The notes beneath the pieces were generated by a model, which saw only the letters and a list, made by a program, of their open reading frames with translations, was not told the origin of the DNA and ran no database searches. The translations under genes were made by a program, and so were the position numbers. 34,188 nucleotides of DNA from a virus, in the IMG/VR virus record IMGVR_UViG_3300032236_001742, positions 1-34,188 of that record; one strand, given 5' to 3'. This document shows positions 3 through 25,700 of the stretch, one piece after another; position 1 is the stretch's first letter; every line of letters begins with the position of its first letter.

Positions 3-578
3 ACCCAAGGTGGTGAGTTTACATTAAACGGTACTGATTACAGAGGACCGTACTATGAAACTTACGATGGGGATACTTTTAGTGGACCAGACCCTGTGAC
101 AGGACCTTCTTTTAAGTTAACACCCATTCAAATACCAGCTGTTACTACCTCGGATACACCTGTAATTGCACCGGGGAATGAAACGTATAATGCAGTAGCA
201 TCACCATCGCTCTTACTTACATCTCAAGTACCTAAATCTTTCAACCCACAACCAACTGATCAAGATTACAAAGCAGGTTATTTCACAAGGTATTTTGCCA
301 AGAAAAGAACTATGGCTGGATTTGTTATTGAAATAGACCAGCCTACCTATACTTCTTTACAGAATGCCGATAGTGTTTATGATTATATTACTTACCAGGC
401 TACAAATTTACTATGGCAGTTAACCGGACCTTTATATAATACTAGACCTCCAGGTAAGTATCCAATCGCCGGTATCATTGATACAAATACAAGACTTGTA
501 GCAGCTAAAGAACCAACTTTCCAAGGTCTAACAGATTATATTGGAGGTAACTATACTAAATTTAGTAAACCTTCATAG
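3..578 (+). CDS. Probable structural protein, C-terminal part (cut by window start)
   Basis: The reading frame is open from the first bases of the window to a TAG at 576-578, so this is the C-terminal 191 residues of a longer protein; an internal GTG at 96 is unlikely to be the true start. The visible part begins with a Gly/Tyr/Asp-rich stretch (NGTDYRGPYYETYDGD), then a Pro/Thr-rich linker, then a compact domain with YFTRYFAKKR and a C-terminal DYIGGNYTKF. No membrane segment or enzymatic motif is visible. The composition and the position before LRR and candidate virion genes fit a tail, neck or baseplate protein, but I do not recognise the family and the structural role is inference. Confidence 0.6.
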   Translation, partial: TQGGEFTLNGTDYRGPYYETYDGDTFSGPDPVTGPSFKLTPIQIPAVTTSDTPVIAPGNETYNAVASPSLLLTSQVPKSFNPQPTDQDYKAGYFTRYFAKKRTMAGFVIEIDQPTYTSLQNADSVYDYITYQATNLLWQLTGPLYNTRPPGKYPIAGIIDTNTRLVAAKEPTFQGLTDYIGGNYTKFSKPS

Positions 579-592: not shown

Positions 593-1132
593 ATGAATGC
601 ACACATACATCAATTTTTTGATTTTCTAAAGAATAAAGAAGGAAAAAACAAGCCTCTTAAGTATAAGCTTTTCTACGAACCTGATTCTATAATACCTGAA
701 GATTCGTACGTGAAAGGTGATCTAGATCTAGGCAATACCTCAATTACTTTCCTACCTAAAAATTTAAAAGTAAGTGGAAATCTTGATTTACATAACACTA
801 AAATTACTTCTCTACCTGAAGGATTAGAAGTAGGTGGAAATCTTGATTTATATAAGACACCAATCACTTCTTTACCGGAAAATCTTCATGTAACAAAGGA
901 TCTTATGTTACAAGCTACACCGCTTGATACTTTACCCCGCGGTCTAAAAGTAGGGGGATATTTACTCTTATTTAGAAATAATATAACTTCTCTACCTCCG
1001 GATTTAGAAGTAGGTAAAGGTATAGATTTAACTCAAACACCACTTGCTGAAAAATACACTAGAGAAGAAATTAGAAAAATGTGTCCTGGTATAAAAGGTC
1101 AAATTGCTCTTGATCACATCTTTAAAAACTAA
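593..1132 (+). CDS. Leucine-rich repeat protein, paralog 1
   Basis: A 179-residue member of a seven-gene phage family. It has three parts: an N-terminal cap (IHQFFDFLKNKEGKNKPLKYKL, here given as a helix around residues 5-25), about five 20-residue LRR units of the type V-G-G-N-L-D-L-x-x-T-x-I-T-S-L-P, and a C-terminal cap with EKYTREEIRKMCPGIKG. The repeats should form a short solenoid with a parallel beta face. No signal peptide or membrane segment is visible, so it should be cytoplasmic or virion-packaged. The stop TAA shares its last A with the ATG of the next paralog (TAATG), suggesting coupled translation. Partner and function are unknown. The reverse-strand open frame here is a shadow of the repeats. 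Confidence 0.85.
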   Translation: MNAHIHQFFDFLKNKEGKNKPLKYKLFYEPDSIIPEDSYVKGDLDLGNTSITFLPKNLKVSGNLDLHNTKITSLPEGLEVGGNLDLYKTPITSLPENLHVTKDLMLQATPLDTLPRGLKVGGYLLLFRNNITSLPPDLEVGKGIDLTQTPLAEKYTREEIRKMCPGIKGQIALDHIFKN

Positions 1133-1413
1133 TGAATACACATATAAAACAATTTTTTGATTTTCTAGAAAAGAAAGATGGTAGAAAAAAGCCTCTTACA
1201 TATAAGCTTATTCATGAACCTGATTCTCTAACACCTGAAGGTTTAAAAGTAGGTGGAGATCTTTATTTAAGTGAAACTAAAATTACCTCTCTACCTCAAG
1301 GTTTAAAAGTAGGTGTAGATCTTTATTTACACGACACTCCACTTTCTGAAAAATATACCAAAGAAGAAATTAGAGGAATGTGTCCTGGTATACAAGGTAG
1401 AATTTATATGTAA
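1132..1413 (+). CDS. Leucine-rich repeat protein, paralog 2 (minimal form)
   Basis: A 93-residue, shortest version of the LRR family: the same N-terminal cap (IKQFFDFLEKKDG) and C-terminal cap (EKYTKEEIRGMCPGIQG), with only about one and a half repeat units between. It overlaps the previous paralog by one base (TAATG). Both caps are intact, so this looks like a repeat-contracted but complete gene rather than a fragment. A solenoid this small probably cannot bind a ligand as its longer relatives might; the caps may carry the function. The gene ends just before promoter 1420-1450. Confidence 0.8.
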   Translation: MNTHIKQFFDFLEKKDGRKKPLTYKLIHEPDSLTPEGLKVGGDLYLSETKITSLPQGLKVGVDLYLHDTPLSEKYTKEEIRGMCPGIQGRIYM

Positions 1414-1465: not shown

Positions 1466-2788
1466 ATGTTTTACATAGTAGAAACGAGTGAGCAGCTAGC
1501 TAGGCTAGTCTTAAGAGAAGATTGTTATATAAAGGTTATATTAGGTAGTGATAACTATCATCCTGAATTAAATTACGTTAGTCTTATTTATATAAGAGAT
1601 AAGTATAGCGGGTATATTCTGGCTATTAATCATAGTGAGACTCTATCTTTAACTCTAGAAGAAGTCCAAGCATTTTTAGCCGGTTGTAAGAAGATATACT
1701 GTCAAGATCAAAAACTGACGTCTAGATTCATTAAACATGATAACATAGTTGATATCAATCAAACTATTCTAGATCAGGAAAATAAACACGTTATCTTTGA
1801 ATGTACACCTAAAATTATACAGCACTACTGTACCGATCATTCACTACTTCCAAATCTCAATAGTATTATTCCTGTATCTAAGCATTATGAAAAATGTGAA
1901 TGTTTATACGACCAGGTTAAAGCCTATATAGGAAAGGAAGAAGATACAACCTTTAATACTAATCTAGCTAGAGAATACAGTAGAATAGAGAGTAATGGGA
2001 TTAAAATAAATCCAGCTATCTTTGATAAGTACTATGAACCAACTTGGGGACCTTATTCAATTAAGGATAACACAATCTACACTTCCTATAACCTCTACAA
2101 CCTGACTGCTAGACCTACAAATGCATTTAATGCTATAAATTTCCTTGCACTCAATAAAGAGGATTCTTCAAGACAGGCATTTATACCTAAGAATGATTTA
2201 TTTGTGGAGTTTGACTTTGAAGCCTATCATCTAGCTCTAATTGCAAAACTGGTTGGATATAAATTCGATACCGCCGAATCTATTCACACACAGTTGGGTA
2301 GACATTACTTCCAAAAAGAGGAATTAACAGAAGATGAATATCAAGAAGCCAAAGCAATATCCTTCAAGCAAATCTATGGAGGAGTACAGAAAGAATACAA
2401 ATCCATACCATTCTTCCAGGAAATAGAGAAGTATATTGATAAGCTATGGATAGAGTATCAAGAAACAGGTAAAACTATATTGAGAACAGGGAGAGCCCTA
2501 CATCTCTCAAAGATCTCTTTGAATCCACAGAAACTATTTAATTACAGTATACAGAACGAGGAAACTAGACAAAATGTAACTTTCTTGATCGAGATTAATT
2601 CAATCCTAAATAGGTATAAGAGTGAGGTAGTATTAGTGGTTTATGATTCTTTTTTACTAGATTTTTCACTAGAAGACGGTAAAGAAGTGTTACTAGAAAT
2701 TAAAGAGGTAATTGAAAGAGAAGGGTTTAAAGCTAAAGTAAAAGTAGGTAAAGACTATGCTTCCCTTACAAGAACAAGCTATTTATAA
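1466..2788 (+). CDS. Divergent family A DNA polymerase-like protein
   Basis: A 440-residue protein whose C-terminal half carries degenerate PolA motifs. These are a TARPTNAFNAINFLA segment, equivalent to the region before motif A; motif A as EFDFEAYHLALIA with Asp about 250; a motif B-like AKAISFKQIYGG near 295-306; and motif C as VVYDSFLLDF with Asp about 394, replacing the usual HDE. Both metal-binding aspartates appear kept. The N-terminal 180 residues resemble a degenerate 3'-5' exonuclease region but show no DEDD set. At 440 residues it is far shorter than the main polymerase at 28162. The ATG at 1466 is preferred over the TTG at 1463. It could be a repair or lesion polymerase, a primase-like factor or a polymerase relic; catalysis is not established. 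Confidence 0.7.
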   Translation: MFYIVETSEQLARLVLREDCYIKVILGSDNYHPELNYVSLIYIRDKYSGYILAINHSETLSLTLEEVQAFLAGCKKIYCQDQKLTSRFIKHDNIVDINQTILDQENKHVIFECTPKIIQHYCTDHSLLPNLNSIIPVSKHYEKCECLYDQVKAYIGKEEDTTFNTNLAREYSRIESNGIKINPAIFDKYYEPTWGPYSIKDNTIYTSYNLYNLTARPTNAFNAINFLALNKEDSSRQAFIPKNDLFVEFDFEAYHLALIAKLVGYKFDTAESIHTQLGRHYFQKEELTEDEYQEAKAISFKQIYGGVQKEYKSIPFFQEIEKYIDKLWIEYQETGKTILRTGRALHLSKISLNPQKLFNYSIQNEETRQNVTFLIEINSILNRYKSEVVLVVYDSFLLDFSLEDGKEVLLEIKEVIEREGFKAKVKVGKDYASLTRTSYL

Positions 2789-2808: not shown

Positions 2809-3117
2809 ATGATACCAACGCAGAATCAAGTAGAGAGAATGCAGGAATTAGCAGGTTTACTTTCAGAAGGAACAATACCTTCACCACAGCCTGTTAAACA
2901 ACAAGCACCCCAAGCAGCAGATGTAAAAGCATTACAACAAGCAAAAAAATCTGCAACCGGTGTTACTTCAAGAGAAAAAAATATTGATACTGCAGCAGAA
3001 TTTCCACAAGCTTTTCACGATTGGTTTGTAGGATTAGGATTCCAACCAGGTAAAATATCTAAATCAGTATTACGTGCTGCTGTAGAAAAAGTGTTAACAG
3101 ATCTAGGTTATAAATAA
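2809..3117 (+). CDS. Small protein with candidate prohead-protease/capsid-targeting N-terminus
   Basis: A 102-residue protein with no recognised enzymatic motif. The N-terminus ERMQELAGLLSEG (residues 9-21) closely parallels that of the next gene (IRMQQLAGIIAEE). It contains L-S-E|G at residues 18-21, which fits the (L/I)-x-E|(A/G/S) cleavage consensus known for T4 prohead protease gp21 and the short capsid-targeting sequences of T4 internal proteins. The middle is Gln/Ala/Pro-rich and probably disordered. The C-terminal 45 residues (FPQAFHDWFVGLGF to LTDLGYK) look like a small helical domain. A packaged internal or head-core protein is inferred, not shown. Motif 2 at 2779 probably drives it together with 3124. 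Confidence 0.7.
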   Translation: MIPTQNQVERMQELAGLLSEGTIPSPQPVKQQAPQAADVKALQQAKKSATGVTSREKNIDTAAEFPQAFHDWFVGLGFQPGKISKSVLRAAVEKVLTDLGYK

Positions 3118-3123: not shown

Positions 3124-3720
3124 ATGCATTATACCGAAGAGATTATAAGAATGCAGCAGTTAGCCGGTATAATAGCCGAAGAGCAGGAAGAAGTAGACCC
3201 TGTGGCAGAAAAAGATGCACAAACTGGGTTAACACAAGCTCTCTCTATTTTAAAATCAGGTACAAAGAATCTTCACCGATCTCCTAAAGATGCTAACTTA
3301 GAAGAATCTATATTAGCAGCAGCAATCTTGGGTGCACCTGAAGTTGTATCTCTACTAGGTAAAGCAGTTAATACCGTATCTAGTGTTTTTCAAAAAGATA
3401 AGAAACAAGGTACTGCAGTAGGTAATGCTTTAAAAAAATGGGGACATCAACTAGAAGGTCAATATGTTACCGCTATTGCTTCTATGTTACAGACTGTATT
3501 TCCTTCCGCTTATGCTAGACAGAGTTTAACCGATAAAAACTCAGCTCTAAATAAAACTGCTTTTCAAATATACGGACTACTTATTGCAGCAGTAGCAATG
3601 AAGAGCGGTAAGTTACAGGTAGATGATGCAATAGAAATAGTTGATAAATTAACAAACGGGTACATATCAAGCTTACCTAAATCAGATTTACTACAGGTAA
3701 TAACAAAATTAATAGGGTAA
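3124..3720 (+). CDS. Unknown helical protein sharing the RMQxLAGI N-terminal motif
   Basis: A 198-residue protein starting six bases after the previous gene. Residues 9-20 (RMQQLAGIIAEE) repeat the neighbour's N-terminal motif and include I-A-E|E, a plausible prohead-protease-like site. The rest is predicted by eye to be mostly helical and Ala-rich, with a weakly hydrophobic segment around 60-85 (ILAAAILGAPEVVSLLGKAV) and another near 150-160 (IYGLLIAAVAM). These could be amphipathic helices rather than membrane spans. A packaged or head-associated protein is inferred from the shared N-terminus. I do not recognise the family. Confidence 0.65.
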   Translation: MHYTEEIIRMQQLAGIIAEEQEEVDPVAEKDAQTGLTQALSILKSGTKNLHRSPKDANLEESILAAAILGAPEVVSLLGKAVNTVSSVFQKDKKQGTAVGNALKKWGHQLEGQYVTAIASMLQTVFPSAYARQSLTDKNSALNKTAFQIYGLLIAAVAMKSGKLQVDDAIEIVDKLTNGYISSLPKSDLLQVITKLIG

Positions 3721-3759: not shown

Positions 3760-4176
3760 ATGACAGAACAGATAAACATATTCGAATTGAGCAATAAATT
3801 ATTTTGCACCTTTACTGCTAAAGATATCTTAGACGATACTCTTACAACCATTACGACACACTACAGTATTCTGTATAACAAAATATTTGTATTGGAGATA
3901 GTGGATGGTGAAGAGTTTCTTGTTACCTATAATATTGACCCACATAATTCAAGTAGCAGTGTTTTAAAGAACACCATACTTCTACATAGAAAGAAAGAAT
4001 CCAATACATTATATACCATCAATGGTTTAAATGCACTAATACGTACCTTAAACGGCGGTACCGTAGATCCTCAATTTAAAATAAACTGGCAAGACCATCG
4101 TAACACCGTTTTACTTACTCAAGGTCCTGATCTAAGACAACTGAAAACAAAGATTTTTAAGATTGTAGCACTTTAA
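3760..4176 (+). CDS. Unknown phage protein
   Basis: A 138-residue protein preceded by its own motif 2 box. No catalytic motif, signal or membrane segment is visible. The C-terminal half (TLYTINGLNALIRTLNGG, then W-x-D-H-R-N-T-V-L-L-T and LRQLKTKIFKIV) has the look of a small conserved phage domain that I have seen in T4-like marine phages without a function, but this is memory, not a search. It sits between candidate virion proteins and an LRR gene and is probably expressed with them. A structural or morphogenetic role is possible and unproven. Confidence 0.65.
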   Translation: MTEQINIFELSNKLFCTFTAKDILDDTLTTITTHYSILYNKIFVLEIVDGEEFLVTYNIDPHNSSSSVLKNTILLHRKKESNTLYTINGLNALIRTLNGGTVDPQFKINWQDHRNTVLLTQGPDLRQLKTKIFKIVAL

Positions 4177-4192: not shown

Positions 4193-5014
4193 ATGTCACA
4201 CATAAAACAATTTTTTGATTTTTTAGAAAAGAAAGAAAGAAAACAAAAGCCTTTTAAGTATAAGTTTATATACGAACCTGAATCTTTAACACCTGAGGAT
4301 CTGAATGTAGAAGGTAGTCTTAGTTTACATAACAAACCAGTAACCTCCCTACCTAAAGGTTTAAATATAAAACGTAATCTCGATCTAAGGAATACTAAAA
4401 TCACATCTTTACCCGAAGGATTAGAAGTAGGTGGATACCTTTGGCTACATAATACTCCAATCACTTCTTTACCTGAAGATTTGGTAGTAGGTGGAGATAT
4501 TGATTTAAGTGACACTAAAATCACTTCTTTACCTAAAGATTTAAAAGTAGGTGGAAATCTTAATTTATATAATACACCAATCACTTCTTTACCTAAAGAT
4601 TTAAAAGTAGGTGGAAATCTTGATTTAAGTGACATTAAAATTACTTCTTTACCGCAAGGTTTAAAAGTAGGAGGGGATCTTGATTTACGTAACACTAACA
4701 TCACTTCTTTACCGCAAGGTTTAAAAGTAGGAGGGGATCTTGATTTATATAATACACCAATCACCTCTTTACCGCAAGGTTTAAAAGTAGGAGGGGATCT
4801 TGATTTAACCGATACACCAATCACTTCTTTACCTCAAGATTTGAAAGTAGGTGGAGATCTTAATTTATATAATACACCAATCACTTCTTTACCTCAAGAT
4901 TTGAAAGTAGGTGGAGATCTTTATTTAGATAAAACTCCACTATCTAAAAAATACACTAAGGAAGAAATTAGAAAAATGTGCCCTGGTATAGAAGGTAGAA
5001 TTTACTTAAAATAA
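4193..5014 (+). CDS. Leucine-rich repeat protein, paralog 3 (longest solenoid)
   Basis: A 273-residue LRR protein with the family N-cap (IKQFFDFLEKKE, residues 4-15), ten full 20-residue repeats and the family C-cap (KKYTKEEIRKMCPGIEG). The repeat core is V-G-G-D-L-D-L-x-x-T-P-I-T-S-L-P. The coding DNA repeats every 60 bases, and neighbouring units share private variants: units 6-8 use CCGCAAGG with AGGAGGGG, units 9-10 use CCTCAAGATTTG, and units 4-5 use CCTAAAGATTT. That pattern means recent tandem duplication or gene conversion inside the gene. It is likely a binding scaffold; the target is unknown. A 230-residue reverse-strand frame over the gene is a by-product of the repeat. Confidence 0.88.
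   Translation: MSHIKQFFDFLEKKERKQKPFKYKFIYEPESLTPEDLNVEGSLSLHNKPVTSLPKGLNIKRNLDLRNTKITSLPEGLEVGGYLWLHNTPITSLPEDLVVGGDIDLSDTKITSLPKDLKVGGNLNLYNTPITSLPKDLKVGGNLDLSDIKITSLPQGLKVGGDLDLRNTNITSLPQGLKVGGDLDLYNTPITSLPQGLKVGGDLDLTDTPITSLPQDLKVGGDLNLYNTPITSLPQDLKVGGDLYLDKTPLSKKYTKEEIRKMCPGIEGRIYLK
4430..4950 (+). repeat. Tandem 60-bp coding repeats in the LRR gene
   Basis: Near-identical 60-base units encode the 20-residue LRR units. A stretch of about 37 bases starting ACCGCAAGGTTTAAAAG recurs exactly at about 4650, 4710 and 4770. Similar units occur in the other LRR paralogs, for example around 13500-13620 and 16680-16760, making these genes candidates for homologous recombination with each other. 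Periodicity and identity were read directly from the sequence. Confidence 0.85.
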
Positions 5015-5105: not shown

Positions 5106-5960
5106 ATGGGCATGGACCTAACAGCAATCAAGAGCAAGCTGGCTTCCTTACAACAGAAAGGCAATGGAGGCCAAAGAAAAGACCTTTCGCAATTAATTTG
5201 GAAACCAGGCGTTGGTAAACACGCAGTAAGAATTGTACCTTCGATGTACGACAAGCACAATCCTTTTAAGGAATTATTTTTCCATTACGGAGTAGGAAAC
5301 CGTACAATGATCTCACTAGCCAACTTTGGTGAGAAAGACCCAATCGTTGAATTTGCCGATCAGCTAAGAAAGACTAGCGACAAAGACAACTGGGCGATGG
5401 CTAAAAAGCTAGCACCTAAGATGCGTGTATTTGCACCTGTTATCGTAAGAGGTGAAGAAGAAAAAGGCGTAAGGTTATGGGAATTCGGTAAACAAATCTA
5501 CATGGAGTTACTAGCAATCGCTGAAGACGAAGATGTACAAGATTACACCGATCCAGTAGAAGGTAGAGATTTAACAATCGAAACTACTGACGCAGCAACT
5601 AATGGTACTGGTTTTAATCAATCAAAGGTTAGAGTTAGAACTAAGATCACACCTCTATCACCAAACGGTAAAGATGTAGAGGCTTGGTTACAAAACCAAC
5701 CAGATCCAATGACCCTATTCAAGAAGTACGGGTATGATGAAATGAAAAACTCATTACTAGAATGGTTAAATCCTTCTGAAACAGAAGAAGTAGCTGAAAC
5801 ACCAGCACCCACTGTAGCAGCACCAGTAGAAAAAGTAAAGTCAAATTATTCATTAGGTAAGAAAGCATCTCCATTAGATGTAGATAAAGCCTTCGATGAT
5901 ATATTTGCACCTACAAAAGCAGCTAAAGAAATAGAATCAGACGACGATTTACCATTTTAA
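5106..5960 (+). CDS. gp32-like single-stranded DNA-binding protein
   Basis: A 284-residue protein of the T4 gp32 type by pattern and context. It has a basic N-terminus (KSKLASLQQK), a core starting LSQLIWKPGVGKHAVRIVPS with FKELFFHYGVG, then an acidic and flexible C-terminus from about residue 225. It ends ESDDDLPF, which matches the acidic DDDIPF-type tail of bacterial SSB proteins that docks replication and repair partners. The zinc-binding Cys/His cluster of T4 gp32 is not visible. It would coat single-stranded DNA at the fork and in recombination. It is followed 25 bases later by the UvsX-like recombinase. An in-frame ATG also lies at 5115. Its promoter carries an operator-like inverted repeat, possibly for autoregulation. 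Confidence 0.82.
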   Translation: MGMDLTAIKSKLASLQQKGNGGQRKDLSQLIWKPGVGKHAVRIVPSMYDKHNPFKELFFHYGVGNRTMISLANFGEKDPIVEFADQLRKTSDKDNWAMAKKLAPKMRVFAPVIVRGEEEKGVRLWEFGKQIYMELLAIAEDEDVQDYTDPVEGRDLTIETTDAATNGTGFNQSKVRVRTKITPLSPNGKDVEAWLQNQPDPMTLFKKYGYDEMKNSLLEWLNPSETEEVAETPAPTVAAPVEKVKSNYSLGKKASPLDVDKAFDDIFAPTKAAKEIESDDDLPF

Positions 5961-5985: not shown

Positions 5986-7071
5986 ATGGCCAAAGCAGAC
6001 AAGGGTATATCCCTAAACGCAAAGTTATCCGATGCGATCAATACACTACCTGATTTAAGCGGGTTTAAGAAATCTAAAAACCTAGCATCATCACCGGTCA
6101 AGTTTAAAGATCAAGAATGGATACCTTTATCGGAAGCTTTCAAGGATACAGTTTCTGTACCTGGAATACCGAAAGGACATATAACGCTGTTGAGAGGTCA
6201 TTCTGATACAGGTAAGACAACCGCTTTACTAGAGGCAGCAGTGTCGGTACAGAAGATGGGAATCTTACCTGTATTAATTATTACAGAGATGAAATGGAGT
6301 TGGGAGCATGCCCGTCAAATGGGTTTTCAATTCCAAGAAGTAGCAGATAAAGATACAGGAGAGGTAGTAGATTATGATGGATTCTTCTTATACGTAGATA
6401 GAGAGAAATTAGGAACGATTGAAGATGTGGCAGCATTTGTAGCCGATATTCTAGATGAACAAAAGAAAGGTAAACTACCTTATGAATTATGTTTCTTCTG
6501 GGATTCAGTTGGATCAATTCCATGTAAGATGTCAGTTGAAAAAGCATCTAATAACAATGAATGGAATGCAGGTGCTATGTCTACTCAATTCGGTAACTTC
6601 ATTAATCAGAAATTTCCGTTATCAAGAAAAGTAAACCAAGTCTACACCAATACCTTTGTGGCTATTAATAAGGTTTGGGTATTGAAACCAGCAACACCAA
6701 TGGAGCAGCCTAAGTTAAAAAACAAGGGTGGAGATACGATGTATTTCGATGCTAGTATGGTTATTACATTTGGTAATATTGCTAACTCAGGTACCAACAA
6801 AATCAAAGCAACAAAAGGCGGTAAGACTGTACAGTTTGCTAAACGTACTAAAATCTCTTGTGATAAAAATCACGTTACTGGAGTAGAAACAGAAGGTAAG
6901 ATAATAATGACCGCTCACGGATTTATAGCCGACGACAAAAAAGCAATCGACAAGTACAAAAAAGACTATTCAGCAGAATGGTTATCAGTTCTAGGAACAA
7001 CAGACTTCGATCTTATCGAAGAGGCAGCAGAAGATACAAGAGATATCTTTGATGCTTCAGAAGCAGAATAA
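5986..7071 (+). CDS. uvsX: UvsX/RecA-like recombinase
   Basis: A 361-residue RecA-fold ATPase. Walker A is GHSDTGKTT at about 71-79, a Walker B-like hydrophobic strand is CFFWDSVGSI near 170-179, and a segment that could contain the DNA-binding loop (KVWVLKPATPMEQPKLKNKGG) follows near 230. The length is close to T4 UvsX (391) and RecA. It should form ATP-dependent filaments on single-stranded DNA covered by the upstream SSB and drive strand exchange for repair and recombination-dependent replication. The C-terminus is acidic (EEAAEDTRDIFDASEAE). It is probably co-transcribed with ssb. A phage RecA orthologue rather than strict UvsX is possible; the recombinase call is firm. Confidence 0.87.
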   Translation: MAKADKGISLNAKLSDAINTLPDLSGFKKSKNLASSPVKFKDQEWIPLSEAFKDTVSVPGIPKGHITLLRGHSDTGKTTALLEAAVSVQKMGILPVLIITEMKWSWEHARQMGFQFQEVADKDTGEVVDYDGFFLYVDREKLGTIEDVAAFVADILDEQKKGKLPYELCFFWDSVGSIPCKMSVEKASNNNEWNAGAMSTQFGNFINQKFPLSRKVNQVYTNTFVAINKVWVLKPATPMEQPKLKNKGGDTMYFDASMVITFGNIANSGTNKIKATKGGKTVQFAKRTKISCDKNHVTGVETEGKIIMTAHGFIADDKKAIDKYKKDYSAEWLSVLGTTDFDLIEEAAEDTRDIFDASEAE

Positions 7072-7106: not shown

Positions 7107-7514
7107 ATGACACGCATCAATATTGGTATTCCACCCCGGACTTTATCTAATCAGCATTTAATTGCCGAGCATCGAGAATTAAAACGTATTCCAAACGTAG
7201 TATCTAGAGGTAGGTATAATCCAAAGTCTATACCGGCTAAGTTTAGCTTGGGTAAAGGCCACGTTTCGTTCTTCTATAATAAACTAGGCTACCTCAAAGA
7301 GAGGTATCGAGAATTATACCAGGAATGTAAGCGTAGAGGATTTAACGTGCAGAACTGGGAGAGCTCTTGGGATGGAGTACCGGTAGAGATGATGAATACT
7401 TATCAACCTACACAGCAAGATATCCAAATCATAAGTGAAAGAATTGCAGATAGACTTGCAAATCCTCTTGCCAAGCAAAAGAAACAATCTAAATTAACCA
7501 CTAAAACAGTGTAG
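7107..7514 (+). CDS. denV: Pyrimidine dimer DNA glycosylase/AP lyase (T4 endonuclease V type)
   Basis: A 135-residue protein, essentially the length of T4 DenV (138). The start MTRINIG matches T4 MTRINL and supplies the Thr2 whose amino group is the nucleophile. Residues 16-26 (QHLIAEHRELK) match T4 QHLMAEYRELP and give catalytic Glu24, equivalent to T4 Glu23 with one residue inserted. LGKGHVSFFYNKL matches LGAGHVTFFYDKL, and ECKRRGFN is also shared. It removes UV-induced cyclobutane dimers. The C-terminal aromatic tail of T4 DenV (WYKYYGK) is replaced by a Lys-rich end. The stop overlaps the GTG of the next gene by one base, suggesting coupling. Useful to a phage exposed to sunlight. Confidence 0.95.
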   Translation: MTRINIGIPPRTLSNQHLIAEHRELKRIPNVVSRGRYNPKSIPAKFSLGKGHVSFFYNKLGYLKERYRELYQECKRRGFNVQNWESSWDGVPVEMMNTYQPTQQDIQIISERIADRLANPLAKQKKQSKLTTKTV

Positions 7515-8536
7515 TGAATAAAGAATTTAAAGCAATCATAGATGGGCTAAAAGAATCTAAAGAAACTCCGTTACATAAAAACAGTAGAATTCTACTTATA
7601 GATTCGTTAAATACCTTTCTAAGAAGTTTCGTAATGATACACCATATTAATCCTCAAGGAAATCATATTGGGGGTTTGACTGGGTATCTGAAATCAATTG
7701 GTTTTGCTATCAGGCATATCAAACCAACCCGTGTAATCCTTGTCTTTGATGGACATGGAGGATCAACTAATAAAAGGTATCTGTATCCTGAATACAAAGC
7801 TAACCGTAAAATCAATAAAATCTCAAATTGGGATGGATTTGATTCACAAGCCGAAGAATCTGCATCTATTACAGATCAGTTAGTAAGACTTATAGACTAC
7901 CTAAAATGTCTACCTGTGGATATGTTATCAATAGATAAGATAGAAGCAGATGATGTTATAGCACATATCAGTAATACAACAGGTGATTCGGTACATATAA
8001 TGTCTTCAGATAGAGATTATCTGCAGTTAGTATCAGATAGGGTAACAGTGTATTCACCGGTGAAGAAGAAGTTCTATACGCCAAAAGCAGTTTTGGACGA
8101 GTATGGCATACCTGCCAATAACTTTCTAACTCAAAAGATTCTACTTGGAGATAGCTCCGATAATGTACCTGGAGTACAGGGGTTAGGAGTAAAGACGATG
8201 TTAAAGCTATACCCGGCCCTAAAAGAACCTGAGACTCTACATATAGAGCAGATCTTAGAACATGCCGAAAAAGAGCAAGGAAAGTATAAGAAGATCTATG
8301 ACTTCCGTCAGCAGCTAGCTATCAATAAACAGTTAATGAATCTACATGAAGTTAATATCCCAGAAGAAGATCTAATAAGAATTCAACACGTAATAGATAA
8401 TCCTAATATGACTGTAGATAAAGCTACCTTTATGAAGTATTATGCTGAGGATTGTTTAGGTAACAGTATACCTAATGTAGCAACTTGGTTTTACGATACC
8501 TTTCAATATTTGACTGGATTTAAGTTGGCGGTCTGA
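7514..8536 (+). CDS. 5'-3' exonuclease/flap nuclease (T4 RNase H, FEN family)
   Basis: A 340-residue FEN-superfamily nuclease. The N-terminal metal site is ILLIDSLNTF with LVFDGHGGS further on, followed by the arch-region YPEYKANRK. The internal acidic cluster is KIEADDVIAH, then MSSDRDYLQL, and the helix-hairpin-helix region has LLGDSSDNVPGVQGLGVKT. These are the standard metal-binding acidic residues. It would remove RNA primers and 5' flaps, a job carried by a separate protein here because the main family A polymerase (28162) lacks a 5' nuclease domain. Starts with GTG overlapping the denV stop; no ATG lies upstream of the conserved core. Promoter 8524-8554 lies over its last codons. Confidence 0.9.
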   Translation: MNKEFKAIIDGLKESKETPLHKNSRILLIDSLNTFLRSFVMIHHINPQGNHIGGLTGYLKSIGFAIRHIKPTRVILVFDGHGGSTNKRYLYPEYKANRKINKISNWDGFDSQAEESASITDQLVRLIDYLKCLPVDMLSIDKIEADDVIAHISNTTGDSVHIMSSDRDYLQLVSDRVTVYSPVKKKFYTPKAVLDEYGIPANNFLTQKILLGDSSDNVPGVQGLGVKTMLKLYPALKEPETLHIEQILEHAEKEQGKYKKIYDFRQQLAINKQLMNLHEVNIPEEDLIRIQHVIDNPNMTVDKATFMKYYAEDCLGNSIPNVATWFYDTFQYLTGFKLAV

Positions 8537-8573: not shown

Positions 8574-9944
8574 ATGACCACATTAAGTAAGTTATCTGAG
8601 TATAGCTCAAGCTTTCAGATAAAAGTTATTACCTCTTTATTAAAGCATAAAGAATTTCTAAACACGATACATGATATCTTAGATCCAGAATCCTTTGATA
8701 ATCCAGCACACAAATGGATTATAGGTGAAATTCTAAGGTATTATAGACAATACCACACAGTACCTTCTTTAGATTCTTTACAGGTTGAAGTTAAGAAGAT
8801 TGCAAACGATGTCTTAAAGGTATCAGTTGTAGAACAGCTAAAAGAAGCTTATAAGACAGTTAACGAAGATAGAGAGTATGTAGAACAGGAGTTCTCTTCT
8901 TTCTTAAAGAATCAACAGCTAAAGAATGCTTTATTCTCTTCTGTAGATCTACTACAGACTGGACAGTATGATAGTATTCGAGGTATTATCGATCAAGCCC
9001 TAAAAGCAGGTCAAGATAAGAATATCGGACACGAATACGTAAAAGATATAGAATCTCGATACAGAGAAGAAGATAGATCTCCTATTCCATCAGAATGGCC
9101 TAAAGTAAATGAATTACTGATGGGAGGATTAGGATCTGGTGATTTCGGTATTATATTTGGTAATCCGGGTGGAGGTAAGTCATGGTGTCTAGTATCGCTA
9201 GGTGCAGAAGCAGTTAGACAGGGTTACACAGTATTACACTATACTCTAGAGTTATCAGAATCGTATGTAGGTAAAAGATACGATGCCTGTTTTACAGGAA
9301 TACCTGTAGACCAACTAAAAGACCATAGAGCCCAAGTAGAAAAGGTTATATCAGAGCTAACCGGTAACTTAGTCGTAAGAGAATATTCACCCGGTAGAGC
9401 TACTATAAGTACTATTGAATCTCATGTACAGAAGTGTATTAGCATGGGTATTAATCCTGATCTAATTATTATTGACTATGTAGACTTACTTAAATCAAAG
9501 AGAAAGTCAACAGAGAAGAAAGATGAGATTGATGATGTATATACAGCAGCAAAAGGTCTAGCCAGAGAATTAAAAGTACCGGTTTGGACCGTATCTCAGG
9601 TTAACCGTGCAGGAGCTAAGGACGATATTATTGAAGGAGATAAAGCAGCAGGATCTTACGATAAGTTAATGATTGCCGACTTTGCAATGTCTTTATCAAG
9701 ACAGAGAAAAGATAAGCAAAACGGTACAGGTAGATTCCACATTATGAAAAATAGATATGGAATGGATGGTATGTCGTATGGTGCTACTGTAGATACTTCG
9801 ATAGGTAAGATTGTATTTGAAGATAGTGAATTAGAGGATACTACGTTTGCACCTAATACTGGAAATACAACAAGTACTTTTGGAGGATTTAGTTCGGTAG
9901 AAAGAGATCAATTAGCTAAAAAATTCTATGAATTGGGGGGATAG
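8574..9944 (+). CDS. DnaB/gp41-like replicative DNA helicase
   Basis: A 456-residue replicative helicase. The N-terminal about 150 residues are helical (domain that binds primase in the family). The C-terminal RecA-like domain has Walker A GNPGGGKS at about 196-203, a Walker B strand LIIIDYVDLLKS near 300, and a downstream VWTVSQVNRAG element typical of the DnaB sensor/H3 region. T4 gp41 (475) and DnaB (471) are similar in length. It would form a hexamer that unwinds the fork for the family A polymerase. No separate primase or helicase loader is visible in this window. The C-terminus ends in a flexible Thr/Gly-rich stretch followed by a short helix. Confidence 0.9.
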   Translation: MTTLSKLSEYSSSFQIKVITSLLKHKEFLNTIHDILDPESFDNPAHKWIIGEILRYYRQYHTVPSLDSLQVEVKKIANDVLKVSVVEQLKEAYKTVNEDREYVEQEFSSFLKNQQLKNALFSSVDLLQTGQYDSIRGIIDQALKAGQDKNIGHEYVKDIESRYREEDRSPIPSEWPKVNELLMGGLGSGDFGIIFGNPGGGKSWCLVSLGAEAVRQGYTVLHYTLELSESYVGKRYDACFTGIPVDQLKDHRAQVEKVISELTGNLVVREYSPGRATISTIESHVQKCISMGINPDLIIIDYVDLLKSKRKSTEKKDEIDDVYTAAKGLARELKVPVWTVSQVNRAGAKDDIIEGDKAAGSYDKLMIADFAMSLSRQRKDKQNGTGRFHIMKNRYGMDGMSYGATVDTSIGKIVFEDSELEDTTFAPNTGNTTSTFGGFSSVERDQLAKKFYELGG

Positions 9945-17885: not shown

Positions 17886-18713
17886 ATGAGTAAAAAACAA
17901 GCTGTCTTGAGTCTCAGTGGAGGTATGGACAGTAGCACGCTATTGCTACATCTGTTAGCAGAGGGTTATGAAGTAACCGCATTATCGTTCGACTATGGTC
18001 AAAAACATAGAGTGGAATTAGAACGAGCACAGTCGTTAGTCGAGTACATTAATGGTCAATTCTCACCAGAGACTTATATCTACGAGTATTCACGAGTTAA
18101 ACACCAAATCATTAAACTAGACGGTCTAGCTCAATTACTAAATTCAGCTCTAGTAACAGGCGGTAAAGATGTTCCTGAAGGACATTACGAACAGGATAAC
18201 ATGAAAGAAACTGTTGTACCTAATCGTAATAAGATCTTTAGTTCATTAATTCAAGCAGTTGCTTTATCGTTAGCTACTACAGGTGAAAAACATGACGTAG
18301 CAATTGCACTAGGGATACATAGTGGAGATCATGCCATATATCCAGATTGCAGACAAGAATTTAGAGATGCTGATATGGAAGCATTTAAGATTGGTAATTG
18401 GGATTCTGAATTAATATCTTTCTATACTCCATACCTAAATACTGATAAGTTTGGTATCTTACAAGATGGTGAAATAGCATGTGAACAGCTAGGTTTAGAT
18501 TTTAATGAAGTTTACAAACGTACTAACACGAGTTACAAGCCATTCCTATCAGGTAATAGTGATTACAAATCAGCAGCATCAGTAGAACGTATTGAAGCTT
18601 TCTTGAAGCTAGGACGACCAGACCCAGTTCAATACGAAGATGAAACCGGACCAGTAACCTGGGAAGTAGCAAGAGCACATGTTGAACAAGTATTATCAAA
18701 CCACGTAAAATAA
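17886..18713 (+). CDS. queC: QueC-type 7-cyano-7-deazaguanine (preQ0) synthase
   Basis: A 275-residue PP-loop ATPase that turns 7-carboxy-7-deazaguanine into preQ0 with ATP and ammonia. The PP-loop SGGMDSSTL is at residues 11-19 and is followed by the family segments LSFDYGQKHRVEL, VPNRNKIF (112-119) and ALGIHSGDHAIYPDCRQEF (141-159). Oddity: the zinc-binding four-cysteine region seen in bacterial QueC before ERREAF is replaced by NTSYKPF-LSGNSDYKSAAS-VERIEAF (214-239), so all four cysteines are gone. The active-site parts are intact, so it is probably active with a metal-free subdomain. It is followed three bases later by dpdA, then queF and a formyltransferase. Confidence 0.93.
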   Translation: MSKKQAVLSLSGGMDSSTLLLHLLAEGYEVTALSFDYGQKHRVELERAQSLVEYINGQFSPETYIYEYSRVKHQIIKLDGLAQLLNSALVTGGKDVPEGHYEQDNMKETVVPNRNKIFSSLIQAVALSLATTGEKHDVAIALGIHSGDHAIYPDCRQEFRDADMEAFKIGNWDSELISFYTPYLNTDKFGILQDGEIACEQLGLDFNEVYKRTNTSYKPFLSGNSDYKSAASVERIEAFLKLGRPDPVQYEDETGPVTWEVARAHVEQVLSNHVK

Positions 18714-18716
18714 TTT

Positions 18717-19490
18717 ATGTTAATATCACACGAAATACCAAAGCAGCTATTTCTGTATCACGATCTTATATCGGATTACCCCTACGTACTAGGACATCTA
18801 CTAAAGAAAGATCCGGAGTATGCTGCCTTCTATAAAGAGAAATTAAAATCAGCTCCTTATTCTATTCTAGATAATTCTGCTTTTGAATTAGGAGAATCTA
18901 TTCCAATGGAGGAATTGTATGAATTAGGTAAGGAGTATAAACCAACACACTTAGTTCTACCTGATAAAGTTAATGATTACCACGTTACTCTAAGTAATGC
19001 TGCATCATACCTTGGAGCTTATAGAGAAGATGATCAGCAGTATATTGGAGTATGTCAAGGAGAGTCTTTTGATCAAATCTTTGATTGTGTTGAATTTTAT
19101 ACGCAGAATAAAGTAGACATTATAGCATTACCTTTTGATCTTATACCTGATTCTGATCACGTAACTATCCGTTACAGATTCTTAAACTGGATGCTACATG
19201 AAAAAAATATACCGTTAGGAATAAAGATACACCTGCTTGGTTGTCAAAACCCGGTCGAATTTCAATTATTTAAGACTCCTGGAGTAGTTAAAAGCTTCAT
19301 TCACTCCTTAGATACAAGCTCTCCGGTGGTAAATGGATGGGTAGGTAATGAATTAGGTCCACACGGTCTAACTAAACCAAAACCTAAAGCTAAACTAGCC
19401 GATAACCTAGATATCACATTAACACAGGATCAAATAGATCTTATTACTAAGAACGTTAAAACTTTCCGTAGCTATGTTAGAAACAATTAA
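18717..19490 (+). CDS. dpdA: DpdA-like DNA guanine transglycosylase
   Basis: A 257-residue TGT-fold protein, much shorter than tRNA-guanine transglycosylases. It should swap guanine in DNA for a 7-deazaguanine base. Candidate catalytic residues are Asp52 in ILDNSAFELG (equivalent to the base-binding Asp of TGT) and Asp199 in IHSLDTSSPVVNG (candidate nucleophile). VLPDKVND (80-87), GVCQGES (111-117), LPFD (138-141) and IHLLGCQNP (171-179) lie where TGT-type barrel strands are expected. The zinc-binding Cys cluster of tRNA TGT is not seen. DpdA of phages is the known enzyme for this step; I cannot assign its subfamily. It sits between queC and queF. Confidence 0.85.
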   Translation: MLISHEIPKQLFLYHDLISDYPYVLGHLLKKDPEYAAFYKEKLKSAPYSILDNSAFELGESIPMEELYELGKEYKPTHLVLPDKVNDYHVTLSNAASYLGAYREDDQQYIGVCQGESFDQIFDCVEFYTQNKVDIIALPFDLIPDSDHVTIRYRFLNWMLHEKNIPLGIKIHLLGCQNPVEFQLFKTPGVVKSFIHSLDTSSPVVNGWVGNELGPHGLTKPKPKAKLADNLDITLTQDQIDLITKNVKTFRSYVRNN

Positions 19491-19491
19491 T

Positions 19492-20397
19492 ATGAATGAT
19501 GCAGCGGCTAGATCTTTAGGATCTGCTAACTCCTATGCTGTATACACAGATAAATTTGACCCGTCTCAATTAAATCCAATGCCAAGATCTGCCGCAAGAG
19601 GAGACTATGGTATAACAGGTAAGGAATTTGTAGGAGTGGATACCTGGCATTGTCACGAAGCTACTTTCCTATTAGAAAGTGGATTACCTCTAGCAGGTAC
19701 TCTAAAAGTAATCTGTCCATCAGATTCAGAGTTTATGGTGGAATCGAAGTCGTTTAAACTCTATCTCAACACATTCGATATGTGTAGAATGGGTAAAACT
19801 ATAGACGAAGCTATTACTAACTACGAACAGCAAGTCAAGACTGATGTTAGTGCATGTATTGGTGCAAATGTAGATGTAAAGTTCTTTAGATCAGGAGCCG
19901 ATAGACTTATCAGTGATGACCCGGGTAAAAACTATATTGATCTTTATAGTTATATTCCAACTGATAAACTTGAATCTATACAAATAACAGATTATAGTTC
20001 TAGTGAATTCCATAGTGTTGTAGACGATTCAACAGCTACAAGTCAAGAAGCTTATTACTTCACAAATGTGTTAAGATCAAGATGTAGACACACCAAGCAA
20101 AAAGATACTGGTACTGCCTTCTTCTACATTAAAACCAAAAGAGGTGCTGTTAATCCAGTTGAATTACTTAAACTGGTCATATCGTTAAGAGAGGTAAATG
20201 AATTCCATGAATTTTGTGCCGAAAAGTTCTATATCGAACTAATGAGTAATCCTTTAATCGAAGAATGTAGTGTAATGTTACTATATGCTAGAAGAGGTTC
20301 TCTAGATATATGCCCAGTTAGAGCTACTAAACCATCTCTAATACCGCCGGCTATTAAGTCTATATACTACTACACAGTAAAAACAATGGGTCAATAA
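19492..20397 (+). CDS. queF: QueF, NADPH-dependent preQ0 reductase (long bacterial type)
   Basis: About 301 residues, near the 282 of E. coli QueF, and alignable along most of its length. The NADPH-binding motif ESKSFKLYLNTF is at 84-95. Catalytic Cys198 and Asp205 are seven residues apart in RSRCRHTKQKD, as in E. coli (Cys190/Asp197), and REVNEFHEFC (233-242) gives the His/Glu pair. So the true nitrile reductase chemistry (preQ0 to preQ1) is expected, not the amidino transfer of archaeal QueF-like proteins. The ATG at 19492 is one base after the dpdA stop; an in-frame ATG at 19474 would overlap dpdA by 17 bases and add six residues. Confidence 0.95.
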   Translation: MNDAAARSLGSANSYAVYTDKFDPSQLNPMPRSAARGDYGITGKEFVGVDTWHCHEATFLLESGLPLAGTLKVICPSDSEFMVESKSFKLYLNTFDMCRMGKTIDEAITNYEQQVKTDVSACIGANVDVKFFRSGADRLISDDPGKNYIDLYSYIPTDKLESIQITDYSSSEFHSVVDDSTATSQEAYYFTNVLRSRCRHTKQKDTGTAFFYIKTKRGAVNPVELLKLVISLREVNEFHEFCAEKFYIELMSNPLIEECSVMLLYARRGSLDICPVRATKPSLIPPAIKSIYYYTVKTMGQ

Positions 20398-20398
20398 T

Positions 20399-20968
20399 AT
20401 GAAACAACTTAATTGGTGTTGCTTCGCATCACAGACAGGTGGAGAGATATTCGACTTATGTCGTAATCTAGACATAATACCTAAGTTACTTATTACAAAT
20501 AACATTAAAAAGTTAAGAACAGATGTAACTAAGTACCTATATACTAATGGATGTAATATAAAGACAGTACCTTTTAATCCTCAAATCTCTGATTATCTCC
20601 AAGAGGATATCCTAAGTAGTAACATAATAACGTTACATGGATATCTACGCATCTTACCCGCCGAATTAATAAATAGCTATAGTCCTAGGGTGATCTACAA
20701 CGGTCATCCTGGGCTTATAACTTATTACCCGGAGCTAAAAGGAAAAGATCCTCAAATCAGGGCCTGGGAAGGTAAGTACGAGACAGTTGGATCGGTGGTA
20801 CATAAAGTAACGGAAGGAGTAGATGAAGGAGGAGTAGTGAGGTTCTCGGCAGTTAAAAACGTAGCTACAGATCTAGATACGATGTATGACTTACTAAAGC
20901 AAACTTCTTTAGATAGCTGGATTAAATTCTTTAAAGACCAGGTATTAAAGTTGGATAGTTCAAATTAA
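20399..20968 (+). CDS. dpdN: Formyltransferase, probable preQ1-DNA formylase (DpdN-like)
   Basis: A 189-residue GART/Fmt-fold formyltransferase. It has the N-terminal FASQTGG loop (9-15), then ILPAELINSY, then the catalytic region YNGHPGLITYYP with Asn101 and His103, and GVDEGGVV with Asp142. These match the Asn/His/Asp set of 10-formyltetrahydrofolate-dependent formyltransferases. It is about the size of PurN and much shorter than Fmt. It starts one base after the queF stop, in the dpd cluster. Published work on phage 7-deazaguanine DNA describes a predicted dPreQ1 formyltransferase, DpdN, giving 7-(formylamino)methyl-7-deazaguanine; position and fold fit that here. A PurN-like purine enzyme cannot be excluded by sequence alone. 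Confidence 0.8.
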   Translation: MKQLNWCCFASQTGGEIFDLCRNLDIIPKLLITNNIKKLRTDVTKYLYTNGCNIKTVPFNPQISDYLQEDILSSNIITLHGYLRILPAELINSYSPRVIYNGHPGLITYYPELKGKDPQIRAWEGKYETVGSVVHKVTEGVDEGGVVRFSAVKNVATDLDTMYDLLKQTSLDSWIKFFKDQVLKLDSSN

Positions 20969-20980
20969 TTCCTTATATTG
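20950..20980 (+). promoter_or_regulatory. Bacteroidota-type promoter inside the end of dpdN
   Basis: GTTG at 20950-20953 in the last codons of the formyltransferase, 20-base spacer, TATATTG at 20974-20980 (closest to the -7 TAnnTTTG consensus). It is followed by motif 2 at 20992, so the homing-endonuclease-like gene has both promoter types. Confidence 0.68.
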
Positions 20981-20991
20981 AAGATATAAAC

Positions 20992-21004
20992 CTATTTATA
21001 TTAA
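20992..21004 (+). promoter_or_regulatory. Motif 2 site (CTATTTATATTAA)
   Basis: Recurring motif 27 bases before the ATG at 21019, lying 11 bases after a -33/-7 promoter. The dual arrangement is unique in the window. Confidence 0.35.
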
Positions 21005-21018
21005 ATAATGGAGTAGGT

Positions 21019-21831
21019 ATGAACAAGACATTAAACAGAGATCTATATTACGGACCGGAAATTATAACACCAAAGCAGGAGATTGTAATTAATCCAACTA
21101 ATCCAGGAAAAGGATATAGTAAGAATACAGTAAAGTGGCGTCAAACTATTCAAATACTATGTAAAGACTGTGACAGTGTCTATAGTAGAAATTACGGAAG
21201 TCATCGACTGTTTATGTTAAAACGCTTAGCTAATAATTCTGATTATATTTGGAAGTGTCATGGGTGTAAAGTGCGGGAAAACAATATCAAGTACTATAAA
21301 GGAAAGACATTAGAAGAAAGGATAGGAGTAGAAAGAGCTAGTACAGTGAAGCAAAAACTAGGTCTTAAAGGTGCCGCAAATCCGCAATACGGTAAACCAG
21401 CTTATCAAGGAGGAGGAAATGGATGGAGTGGTTGGTATAGAGGTACTTACTTTAGAAGTATCAGAGAATTAAGTTTTATAGTAAAATACTTAGATAGGTT
21501 TAAGTTTAAATATCGAACTACCGAGAAGAAAACAGATGGAATACCGTATCTAGATTACAGGAAAAAACCACGTACATACTTTCCAGATTTCCTAGTTGAG
21601 GATAAGTTTCTTGTAGAAATAAAGCCTAGAGCATTATGGAATTCACAAGAAGTTTTAAATAAAAAAACAGCAGCAGTTGGATACTGTCAAAAAAATAACT
21701 ATATTTACAAAATAATAGATCCAATAACACTATCGTTTCCGGAAATACAGAAACTCTATAATGAAGGGGATATAGTTTGGTTAGATCGATACCAGAAAAA
21801 ATTTAACGAATTTAAAAAAATACACTTATGA
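21019..21831 (+). CDS. Homing-endonuclease-like protein with PD-(D/E)XK nuclease domain
   Basis: A 270-residue protein. Residues 50-95 hold zinc-finger-like CxxC pairs (LCKDCDSVY, KCHGCKVREN). Residues 95-140 hold a DNA-binding segment (KGKTLEERIGVERASTVKQ, NPQYGK) like NUMOD-type modules of phage homing endonucleases. Residues 145-205 give a PD-(D/E)XK nuclease: FRSIRELSFIV, then YFPDFLVEDKFLVEIKP with Asp, Glu and Lys in the expected order. It is free-standing and placed between dpdN and the ATPase/queD genes, so it probably inserted into the modification cluster. ATGGAGTAGGT before the ATG gives one of the few SD-like leaders. Its overlap with the next ATG (ATGA) suggests it is now tied into the operon. 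Confidence 0.8.
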   Translation: MNKTLNRDLYYGPEIITPKQEIVINPTNPGKGYSKNTVKWRQTIQILCKDCDSVYSRNYGSHRLFMLKRLANNSDYIWKCHGCKVRENNIKYYKGKTLEERIGVERASTVKQKLGLKGAANPQYGKPAYQGGGNGWSGWYRGTYFRSIRELSFIVKYLDRFKFKYRTTEKKTDGIPYLDYRKKPRTYFPDFLVEDKFLVEIKPRALWNSQEVLNKKTAAVGYCQKNNYIYKIIDPITLSFPEIQKLYNEGDIVWLDRYQKKFNEFKKIHL

Positions 21832-22337
21832 ATATATTAGTTGGATCCCACGGTACGGGAAAAAGTACACTACTAAAAGCAGTTCAAGAGAAGTATCCGG
21901 ATTACTACGTAACAGATGGATTCTCAAGACCTGTATATAAGATTGGTAAGATGCTAGATTTCTCTGAGCATGAAAAGCAAGTAGTTATTAACGAACTAAC
22001 GATGTGGGGATATCAAAACTACCTATCACATAGAAACGTTATATCTACTCGTAGTATTATTGACTGTATAATCTATACAGGTATCTTACATCCAAAGATC
22101 GATACGTCAGAGATGTTAGAGTTGTTCGAAGCAACTAAAAGTCAGGTAAACTATTTCTTCTATATTCCAATTGAATTTAGCTTTGTATATGATCCACAGA
22201 GATTAAACGAAGAGCTACAAAAGAAAGTAGATAGTCTATTTGTAGACTTTATTGAAGAGTATGTACCTAAGGAGCAGTTAGTTGTTATAACAGGTACTAT
22301 TGAAGAAAGATTAGAAACTATATCACAATACTTATAA
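21828..22337 (+). CDS. P-loop ATPase/kinase-like protein
   Basis: A 169-residue P-loop NTPase with Walker A GSHGTGKST at residues 6-14. The segment VTDGFSRPVYKIGKM follows, and then STRSIIDCIIYTGIL, the kind of strand-plus-helix seen in NadR-like or nucleotide-kinase-like AAA proteins. It is about the size of a small kinase and has no helicase motif. It starts inside the stop of the upstream gene (ATGA) and is followed four bases later by queD, so it may serve the deazapurine pathway, for example as a nucleotide kinase; this is inference. The substrate cannot be told. Confidence 0.75.
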   Translation: MNILVGSHGTGKSTLLKAVQEKYPDYYVTDGFSRPVYKIGKMLDFSEHEKQVVINELTMWGYQNYLSHRNVISTRSIIDCIIYTGILHPKIDTSEMLELFEATKSQVNYFFYIPIEFSFVYDPQRLNEELQKKVDSLFVDFIEEYVPKEQLVVITGTIEERLETISQYL

Positions 22338-22340
22338 ATT

Positions 22341-22802
22341 ATGACATTTCAATCAACTAAATTATTTGATGGGTACTCTACAGTCTTCCGCCAGTGGAAA
22401 GCAGAAGGTACTCACTGCAAATTCTTACATGGCTATGGAGTATCTTTTAAGGTTACGTTTGAGGGTGATCTAGATGAACGCAATTGGGTATGGGATTTTG
22501 GCGGTATGAAACGTGCCAAAGGTACCATCGATGGATTAAGTCCGAAGGCGTGGATGGATTATATGTTTGATCATACGTTAGTAGCTTCTATGGACGATCC
22601 TGAACTAGAGATTTTTAAAGAGCTACATGCTAAAAACATAGTACAACTAAGAATCGTACCTGCTACAGGTGCCGAACAGTTTGCTAAGTATATCTTTGGT
22701 AAACTAGTAGAGTTTGTAGAAGAAGAGACTAACCAAAGAGTCACTATAACTCAAGTAGAGTTTATGGAGAATGGTAAGAATACAGCAATTTATAAATCTT
22801 AA
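22341..22802 (+). CDS. queD: QueD-like 6-carboxy-tetrahydropterin synthase
   Basis: A 153-residue member of the QueD/PTPS family, which makes 6-carboxytetrahydropterin from dihydroneopterin triphosphate, the second step to preQ0. Cys26 in HCKFLHGY is the catalytic cysteine of the C-x3-H motif. DFGGMK (E. coli DFAELK), DHTLVA and GAEQFAKYI match family landmarks. Two of the usual three zinc-binding histidines differ: the His of the FxAAH motif aligns with Gln18 of FRQW, and the HGH is HGY (His30 kept, Tyr32). His25 beside Cys26 might replace a ligand. The FRQW/LHGY form is one I recall in some bacterial and phage PTPS proteins. It forms a short cluster with the ATPase and the next gene. Confidence 0.87.
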   Translation: MTFQSTKLFDGYSTVFRQWKAEGTHCKFLHGYGVSFKVTFEGDLDERNWVWDFGGMKRAKGTIDGLSPKAWMDYMFDHTLVASMDDPELEIFKELHAKNIVQLRIVPATGAEQFAKYIFGKLVEFVEEETNQRVTITQVEFMENGKNTAIYKS

Positions 22803-22821
22803 TATGGCACAGCAATTTATA
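22782..22821 (+). repeat. 13-bp direct repeat across the queD end
   Basis: ACAGCAATTTATA occurs exactly at 22782-22794 (end of queD) and again at 22809-22821 (codons 2-6 of the next gene). It could arise by slippage or mark the edge of an insertion or deletion. Direct observation; function unknown. Confidence 0.6.
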
Positions 22822-23289: not shown

Positions 23290-23291
23290 AA

Positions 23292-23322: not shown

Positions 23323-23327
23323 AGTGT

Positions 23328-23450: not shown

Positions 23451-23464
23451 CAATTTAAAAACAT

Positions 23465-23470: not shown

Positions 23471-23475
23471 AAACT

Positions 23476-23682: not shown

Positions 23683-23683
23683 T

Positions 23684-24926: not shown

Positions 24927-24929
24927 TAT

Positions 24930-25692: not shown

Positions 25693-25700
25693 AAACAAAT

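Follow-up and report, generated by a model that had tools for sequence, protein, structure and literature searches.

Genes at the locus

The window that we analyzed is 34,188 nucleotides of viral DNA (IMG/VR record IMGVR_UViG_3300032236_001742, positions 1-34,188), and all coordinates are those of this window (Table 1). One of its genes, which we will call divPolA1 after the family it belongs to (see below), encodes a protein that matches DNA_pol_A in Pfam (PF00476; E = 3.8e-10). The score of 39.7 bits is above the curated cutoff of 34.3 bits, so this match is not due to chance. E. coli Pol I is a weak match (E = 0.003) in a sequence search of the PDB. An earlier note on this DNA had described a 440-residue second family A polymerase here, and the open reading frame, the Pfam match, and the Pol I fold all confirm this. 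The same note had a normal family A replicase at 28162, and by Pfam this is indeed a full PolA with exonuclease and polymerase domains. Its motif A (DYESLEP) retains E710, and its motif C is VHDQ. We found no tRNAs in the window, and no matches to Rfam.

Table 1. Features of the window. Counts out of 100 are for loci with at least 7 kb of DNA downstream of divPolA1. Residue numbers are for divPolA1, with equivalent residues of Pol I after the equals sign.
Feature	Position	Strand	Description
g96	96..578	+	Conserved ORF, no function assigned; upstream of divPolA1 in 290 loci
LRR-like gene	593..1132	+	
LRR-like gene	1132..1413	+	
divPolA1	1466..2788	+	440 aa from the ATG at 1466; diverged thumbless family A polymerase
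N-terminal pseudo-exonuclease domain	1466..1945	+	Residues 1-160; from whole-model structural alignment to Bst
Truncated thumb region	1946..2104	+	Residues 161-213; ~86 residues shorter than E. coli Pol I
Motif A (EFDFEAYHLAL)	2207..2239	+	Residues 248-258; D250 = D705, H255 at the E710 (steric gate) position
O-helix (motif B)	2330..2380	+	Residues 289-305; Y292 = R754, K296 = K758, F300 = F762, Y304 = Y766
Motif C (YDS)	2642..2650	+	Residues 393-395; Y393 = H881, D394 = D882, S395 = E883
Orphan gene	2809..3117	+	
Orphan gene	3124..3720	+	
g3760	3760..4176	+	Small alpha/beta protein of 138 aa; may be a dedicated partner of divPolA1
LRR-like gene	4193..5014	+	
gp32-type single-strand DNA-binding protein (SSB)	5106..5960	+	PF08804 5.2e-13, phrog_1192 1.6e-18; 100/100 loci
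UvsX-like recombinase	5986..7071	+	phrog_97 1.7e-14; 100/100 loci
Endonuclease V-type UV repair N-glycosylase (EndoV)	7107..7514	+	phrog_1183 5.3e-39; 12/100 loci
5'-3' exonuclease (FEN/RNase H type)	7514..8536	+	phrog_107 6.9e-31; 99/100 loci
DnaB-like replicative helicase	8574..9944	+	phrog_19 5.2e-82; 98/100 loci
RNR	10213		Downstream of DnaB; 42/100 loci
7-deazaguanine DNA-modification set	17886..26574	+	QueC, QueD, QueE, GTP cyclohydrolases
DpdA-like gene	18717..19490		32% identity to immuto DpdA (E = 5e-35)
Regular PolA replicase with 3'-5' exonuclease	28162..30474	+	770 aa; PF00476 2.7e-60, PF01612 8.3e-14
Phage GroEL	31719..33368	+	Near the main PolA; immuto has the same arrangement

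The protein is a member of divPolA1

The divPolA1 family has already been published (Yutin et al. 2024, Virol J 21:200, PMC11348598). It was defined from 14 genomes, those of Flavobacterium phage immuto and its relatives, and is described there as having a truncated thumb, an inactivated 3'-5' exonuclease, a conserved palm, and a replication-gene context. In our literature search, the name was used only in that paper and its preprint. The protein from the window belongs to this family: it is orthologous to immuto gp001 (37% identity over 95% of the protein, E = 3e-67), and it shares the published gene order, the short thumb, and the presence of a second, regular DNA polymerase. Members of the family are nucleotidyltransferases derived from family A, occur in large T4-like phages, and exist alongside a regular replicase.

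Using tblastn against 50,697 phage records, the only clear relatives that we found were those in four immuto records, LR756508 (a 484-kb uncultured phage), and Microcystis phage Mel-JY01. The family is much larger in IMG/VR, where one of several scans gave at least 575 relatives. A profile search of bacterial genome contigs found three with divPolA1, all from metagenome-assembled genomes. We kept 309 loci with the gene, which include 237 distinct full-length sequences. Each large record has one copy.

Fold of divPolA1

The AlphaFold2 model of divPolA1, from an alignment of 69 rows, has a mean pLDDT of 95.2 and a pTM of 0.92. Foldseek matched it to Pol I structures (E from 2e-18 to 1e-16), and VIA aligned residues 1-435 to residues 300-876 of Bst Pol I (Z = 27.2, 411 aligned residues, rmsd 3.9). 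Palm geometry, which the earlier note had proposed to check by structure prediction, is correct in the model; the alternative outcome of a non-palm fold did not occur.

The structural alignment spans residues 1-435, so the N-terminal domain has an exonuclease-like fold in the model. The exonuclease had been described as lost, and this is half right: the fold remains, from residue 1 to about residue 160, without a conserved DEDD set of acidic residues. Pfam gives no exonuclease match in the protein. In the first strand of the domain, positions 26-29 vary, and counts by column show no conserved acidic pair; residue mapping by profile alignment failed here. (With hhalign, the global alignment of the exonuclease half to Pol I slid across domains, and the local alignment was insignificant.) By the structural alignment of Yutin et al., the catalytic aspartates are replaced (PMC11348598). 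On the other hand, H32, H56, K83, D96, and P136 are each invariant (69/69), which suggests that this pseudo-exonuclease domain probably has a retained function, perhaps as a binding surface.

A feature that had been overlooked is the thumb. The family profile and E. coli Pol I share two aligned blocks: profile positions 163-191 pair with 534-562, and positions 211-416 pair with 668-911. Between the blocks there are 19 residues in the profile (191 to 211) versus 105 in Pol I (562 to 668), so that about 86 residues are missing where the thumb would be. Together, the model and the alignments predict a Klenow-type fold in which the exonuclease domain is probably non-catalytic and the thumb is cut short; the two-aspartate palm is intact, and dNTP-binding fingers are present.

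The active site is conserved, with a distinctive signature

The motif A and motif C strings that had been reported are both in place: EFDFEAYHLALIA spans residues 248-260, and YDS spans residues 393-395. As had also been noted, both catalytic aspartates are kept. Besides the equivalences in Table 1, the alignment pairs R216 with R668, R236 with R682, H274 with H734, and Q363 with Q849 of Pol I. R216, D250, K296, F300, Y304, Q363, and D394 are identical in all 237 distinct full-length sequences, and this catalytic set holds across sequences down to 24-30% identity.

Three departures from Pol I are fixed or nearly so: His replaces E710 (237/237), Tyr replaces H881 (237/237), and Tyr replaces R754 (236/237). 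The third residue of motif C is Ser or Ala across the 237 sequences. The regular PolA proteins from the same phages, where these positions could be read, retain Glu, Arg, and His at the positions of E710, R754, and H881. Judging from these alignments, the active-site signature of divPolA1 is unlike that of the other PolA enzymes that we examined.

Some of these changes have precedents. The polymerase of phage Tt72, a related phage PolA, carries a natural Ser at the position of E883. Its E389A and S616A variants have 35% and 76% activity, while two Asp mutants have 4% (PMC9324360). These activities imply that loss of the side chain at E710 or E883 is tolerable in a phage PolA.

Among near relatives, dN/dS for divPolA1 is 0.03-0.11. 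This and the invariant catalytic residues are evidence against decay, and by this measure divPolA1 is under strong purifying selection. The earlier note's term "degenerate" overstates the case: the family A polymerase is diverged but not decaying.

divPolA1 heads a replication and recombination cassette

The earlier note had grouped the gene with structural genes and set it apart from the replication block. We found the opposite: divPolA1 is at the head of a cassette (g3760, SSB, UvsX, EndoV, 5'-3' exonuclease, DnaB, and then RNR), and it is the main PolA that stands apart, about 25 kb away, beside 7-deazaguanine genes, nucleotide genes, and GroEL. Immuto is similar: gp001 (441 amino acids, annotated as "DNA polymerase family A") is followed by two small genes, SSB, recombinase, 5'-3' exonuclease, and DnaB, and its 777-residue PolA adjoins GroES/GroEL, which is the same layout as in the window. 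Chaperonin genes are reported near the regular DNA polymerase in all divPolA1 phages (PMC11348598). The cassette is also present in Mel-JY01, where the replicase is PolB. This synteny places divPolA1 in replication or recombination without pointing to a particular step.

Unlike in immuto, the surroundings of divPolA1 in the window include inserted genes: two orphan genes, plus LRR-like genes on either side. The three LRR-like genes are related, with similar N-terminal (HIxQFFDFLxxK) and C-terminal (YTxEEIRxMCPGIxGxI) segments, and two of these genes turned up in no more than a handful of related loci. The orphan genes share a similar MQxLAG segment near their starts, and both are absent from a 98%-identical relative (L006). 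Two of the LRR-like genes separate divPolA1 from g96, which is directly upstream of it in relatives and ends 60 bp ahead of it in L006; a homolog of g96 directly precedes divPolA1 in Mel-JY01 as well. Comparing g96 to PHROGs gave only weak, scattered matches in a few members. Elsewhere in the window, the 7-deazaguanine set and the DpdA-like gene suggest that the phage's DNA probably contains a modified guanine.

A small neighbor, g3760, is paired with divPolA1

g3760 is downstream of divPolA1 in all 100 loci with at least 7 kb of downstream DNA. In the reciprocal set of loci, which were fetched via g3760 and have room upstream, divPolA1 is present in 45/45, and in 43 of these the two genes are within about 100 bp or overlap. 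Among the phage records, g3760 is in exactly the six that have divPolA1, and it is single-copy in all 19 large records searched. It lies immediately downstream in nearly every divPolA1 phage, and we never saw it without divPolA1. In the window, the two orphan genes part the pair, while the gap in L006 is about 18 bp.

The AlphaFold2 model of g3760 (pLDDT of 88.6) has no credible structural relative, with a best Foldseek E value of 0.36. The best VIA match, to the origin-binding domain of SV40 T-antigen (Z = 5.7 over 73 residues), is level with those to unrelated alpha/beta folds, so we assign no fold. Comparisons of g3760 to PHROGs and to Pfam gave only weak, scattered matches in a few members.

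The pairing of g3760 with divPolA1 is our strongest new lead. Co-distribution does not equal interaction; nevertheless, from this genomic pattern we infer, with slightly more confidence than doubt, that g3760 is a physical partner of divPolA1.

Comparison to other family A polymerases

divPolA1 resembles the large fragments of E. coli and Bacillus Pol I (Klenow and Bst) along its whole length (Z of about 27) and shares D705, D882, R668, R682, H734, K758, F762, Y766, and Q849 with them. It differs in lacking about 86 thumb residues and, apparently, the exonuclease residues, in the replacement of E710, R754, and H881, and in its low identity (15-18%).

divPolA2 (AUR84708 from Vibrio phage 1.063.O), which was described by Yutin et al. 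as well (PMC11348598), is likewise an extra thumbless family A palm beside a regular DNA polymerase. However, it has an unrelated N-terminal domain, and its motif A (DFKAFE) retains the equivalent of E710. We found no significant sequence relation between divPolA1 and divPolA2: hmmsearch gave a domain E value of 0.05 without a coherent alignment, and hhalign gave a probability of 0.4%. We also considered a split polymerase as in Rhodothermus phage RM378, but the first 50 kb of the RM378 genome has no match to divPolA1.

T7 gp5 is a family A polymerase whose grip on DNA depends on a small partner, E. coli thioredoxin, which binds at the thumb. We propose gp5 with thioredoxin as a model for divPolA1 with g3760. 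Unlike thioredoxin, g3760 is encoded by the phage, and the structural matches listed for g3760 include no thioredoxin fold.

Possible functions of divPolA1

Of 21 large records with divPolA1, 20 contain a regular replicase (14 PolA and 6 PolB), and the exception is a 114-kb fragment. One of the six PolB records, the 484-kb phage, also has a match to PolC. Similarly, divPolA1 is reported to co-occur with a regular DNA polymerase of family PolA, PolB, or PolC (PMC11348598). Because the type of replicase varies, divPolA1 seems to persist while the replicase changes.

From the fold, residues, selection, and synteny of divPolA1, which were all shown computationally, we arrive at a proposal for its activity, substrate, and partner. 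It is very probably an active polymerase. For the overall picture, we lean towards a non-proofreading, low-processivity, gap-filling polymerase that would work with g3760, SSB, UvsX, and FEN in lagging-strand synthesis or in synthesis coupled to recombination. That its job is specifically gap filling or recombination synthesis seems to us about as likely as not. In this proposal, divPolA1 would carry out distributive, short synthesis without proofreading on SSB-coated DNA, either filling the gaps after primer removal by the neighboring FEN or extending D-loops made by UvsX. divPolA1 and the separate FEN would act like a cellular DNA polymerase I that is split into subunits. Without a thumb, divPolA1 would be expected to bind the primer-template weakly, so it would need a partner to hold it on DNA; g3760, as its constant neighbor, would be the best candidate. 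The loss of the thumb could even abolish primer-template binding, and with E710, R754, and H881 all replaced, catalysis may be weak or altered.

We think it unlikely that divPolA1 is a translesion or UV-repair polymerase. The apparent absence of the exonuclease's catalytic set and the truncated thumb would permit lesion bypass, and the window's cassette includes an EndoV-type UV glycosylase. However, EndoV is in just 12 of 100 loci, so it does not travel with divPolA1. Also, the dNTP contacts R682, H734, K758, F762, and Y766 are kept, and the site is not obviously loosened. The earlier note had suggested lesion-bypass assays; such a role may exist, but we found nothing that specifically points to it.

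The steric gate raises another idea. E710 is the barrier to ribonucleotides in Pol I (PMC9324360), and it is His in all 237 divPolA1 sequences, in contrast to the Glu that the regular PolA of these phages retains. divPolA1 might then admit ribonucleotides and make or extend RNA primers. Yet F762 is kept, His is still bulky, and a DnaG-type primase is encoded by immuto and was found in every searched record of at least 150 kb. divPolA1 is therefore not there to replace a missing primase, and we rejected primase replacement as the main reading. We consider a primer-making or ribonucleotide-tolerant polymerase to be quite improbable. We would give barely more credence to a bolder scenario that, as read from sequences and models, would make divPolA1 a distinct class of enzyme in the PolA superfamily: an obligate two-protein polymerase in which g3760 replaces the thumb and the His gate alters the sugar preference (e.g., for primers or patches that contain ribonucleotides).

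It is very unlikely that divPolA1 is a catalytically dead accessory, with the polymerase fold reused as a replisome scaffold or a DNA-binding subunit. Three normally conserved active-site residues are changed, the exonuclease and thumb are lost, and the pseudo-exonuclease domain has invariant non-catalytic residues, all of which would fit. But if catalysis were dispensable, then some loss would be expected among the two metal-binding aspartates and five substrate-contact residues, which are 100% invariant across 237 sequences.

Least plausible is a swap of roles, with divPolA1 as the true principal (or lagging-strand) replicase and the large PolA as the auxiliary: it is divPolA1, not the large polymerase, that lies in the conserved cassette and stays constant as the regular replicase changes among PolA, PolB, and PolC, and the regular polymerases have a mixed gene context (PMC11348598), but a small enzyme with no proofreading and no thumb is unlike any known replicative PolA, and the large PolA is complete with its exonuclease.

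Implications

With this analysis, divPolA1 grows from the 14 genomes named earlier to a family of at least 237 distinct full-length sequences. Besides scale, it adds the fixed substitution signature, the estimate of selection, the co-residence with replicases, and the pairing with g3760. The main text of PMC11348598, as far as it was available to us, mentions neither the E710H/R754Y/H881Y signature nor the pairing with g3760, and parts of what we add may already appear in the figures or supplements of Yutin et al. For this published and uncharacterized polymerase, the data single out its small neighbor g3760 as a candidate partner. If the partner does replace the thumb, this would bear on how polymerases grip DNA, and the pair would be a new candidate enzyme for gap filling.
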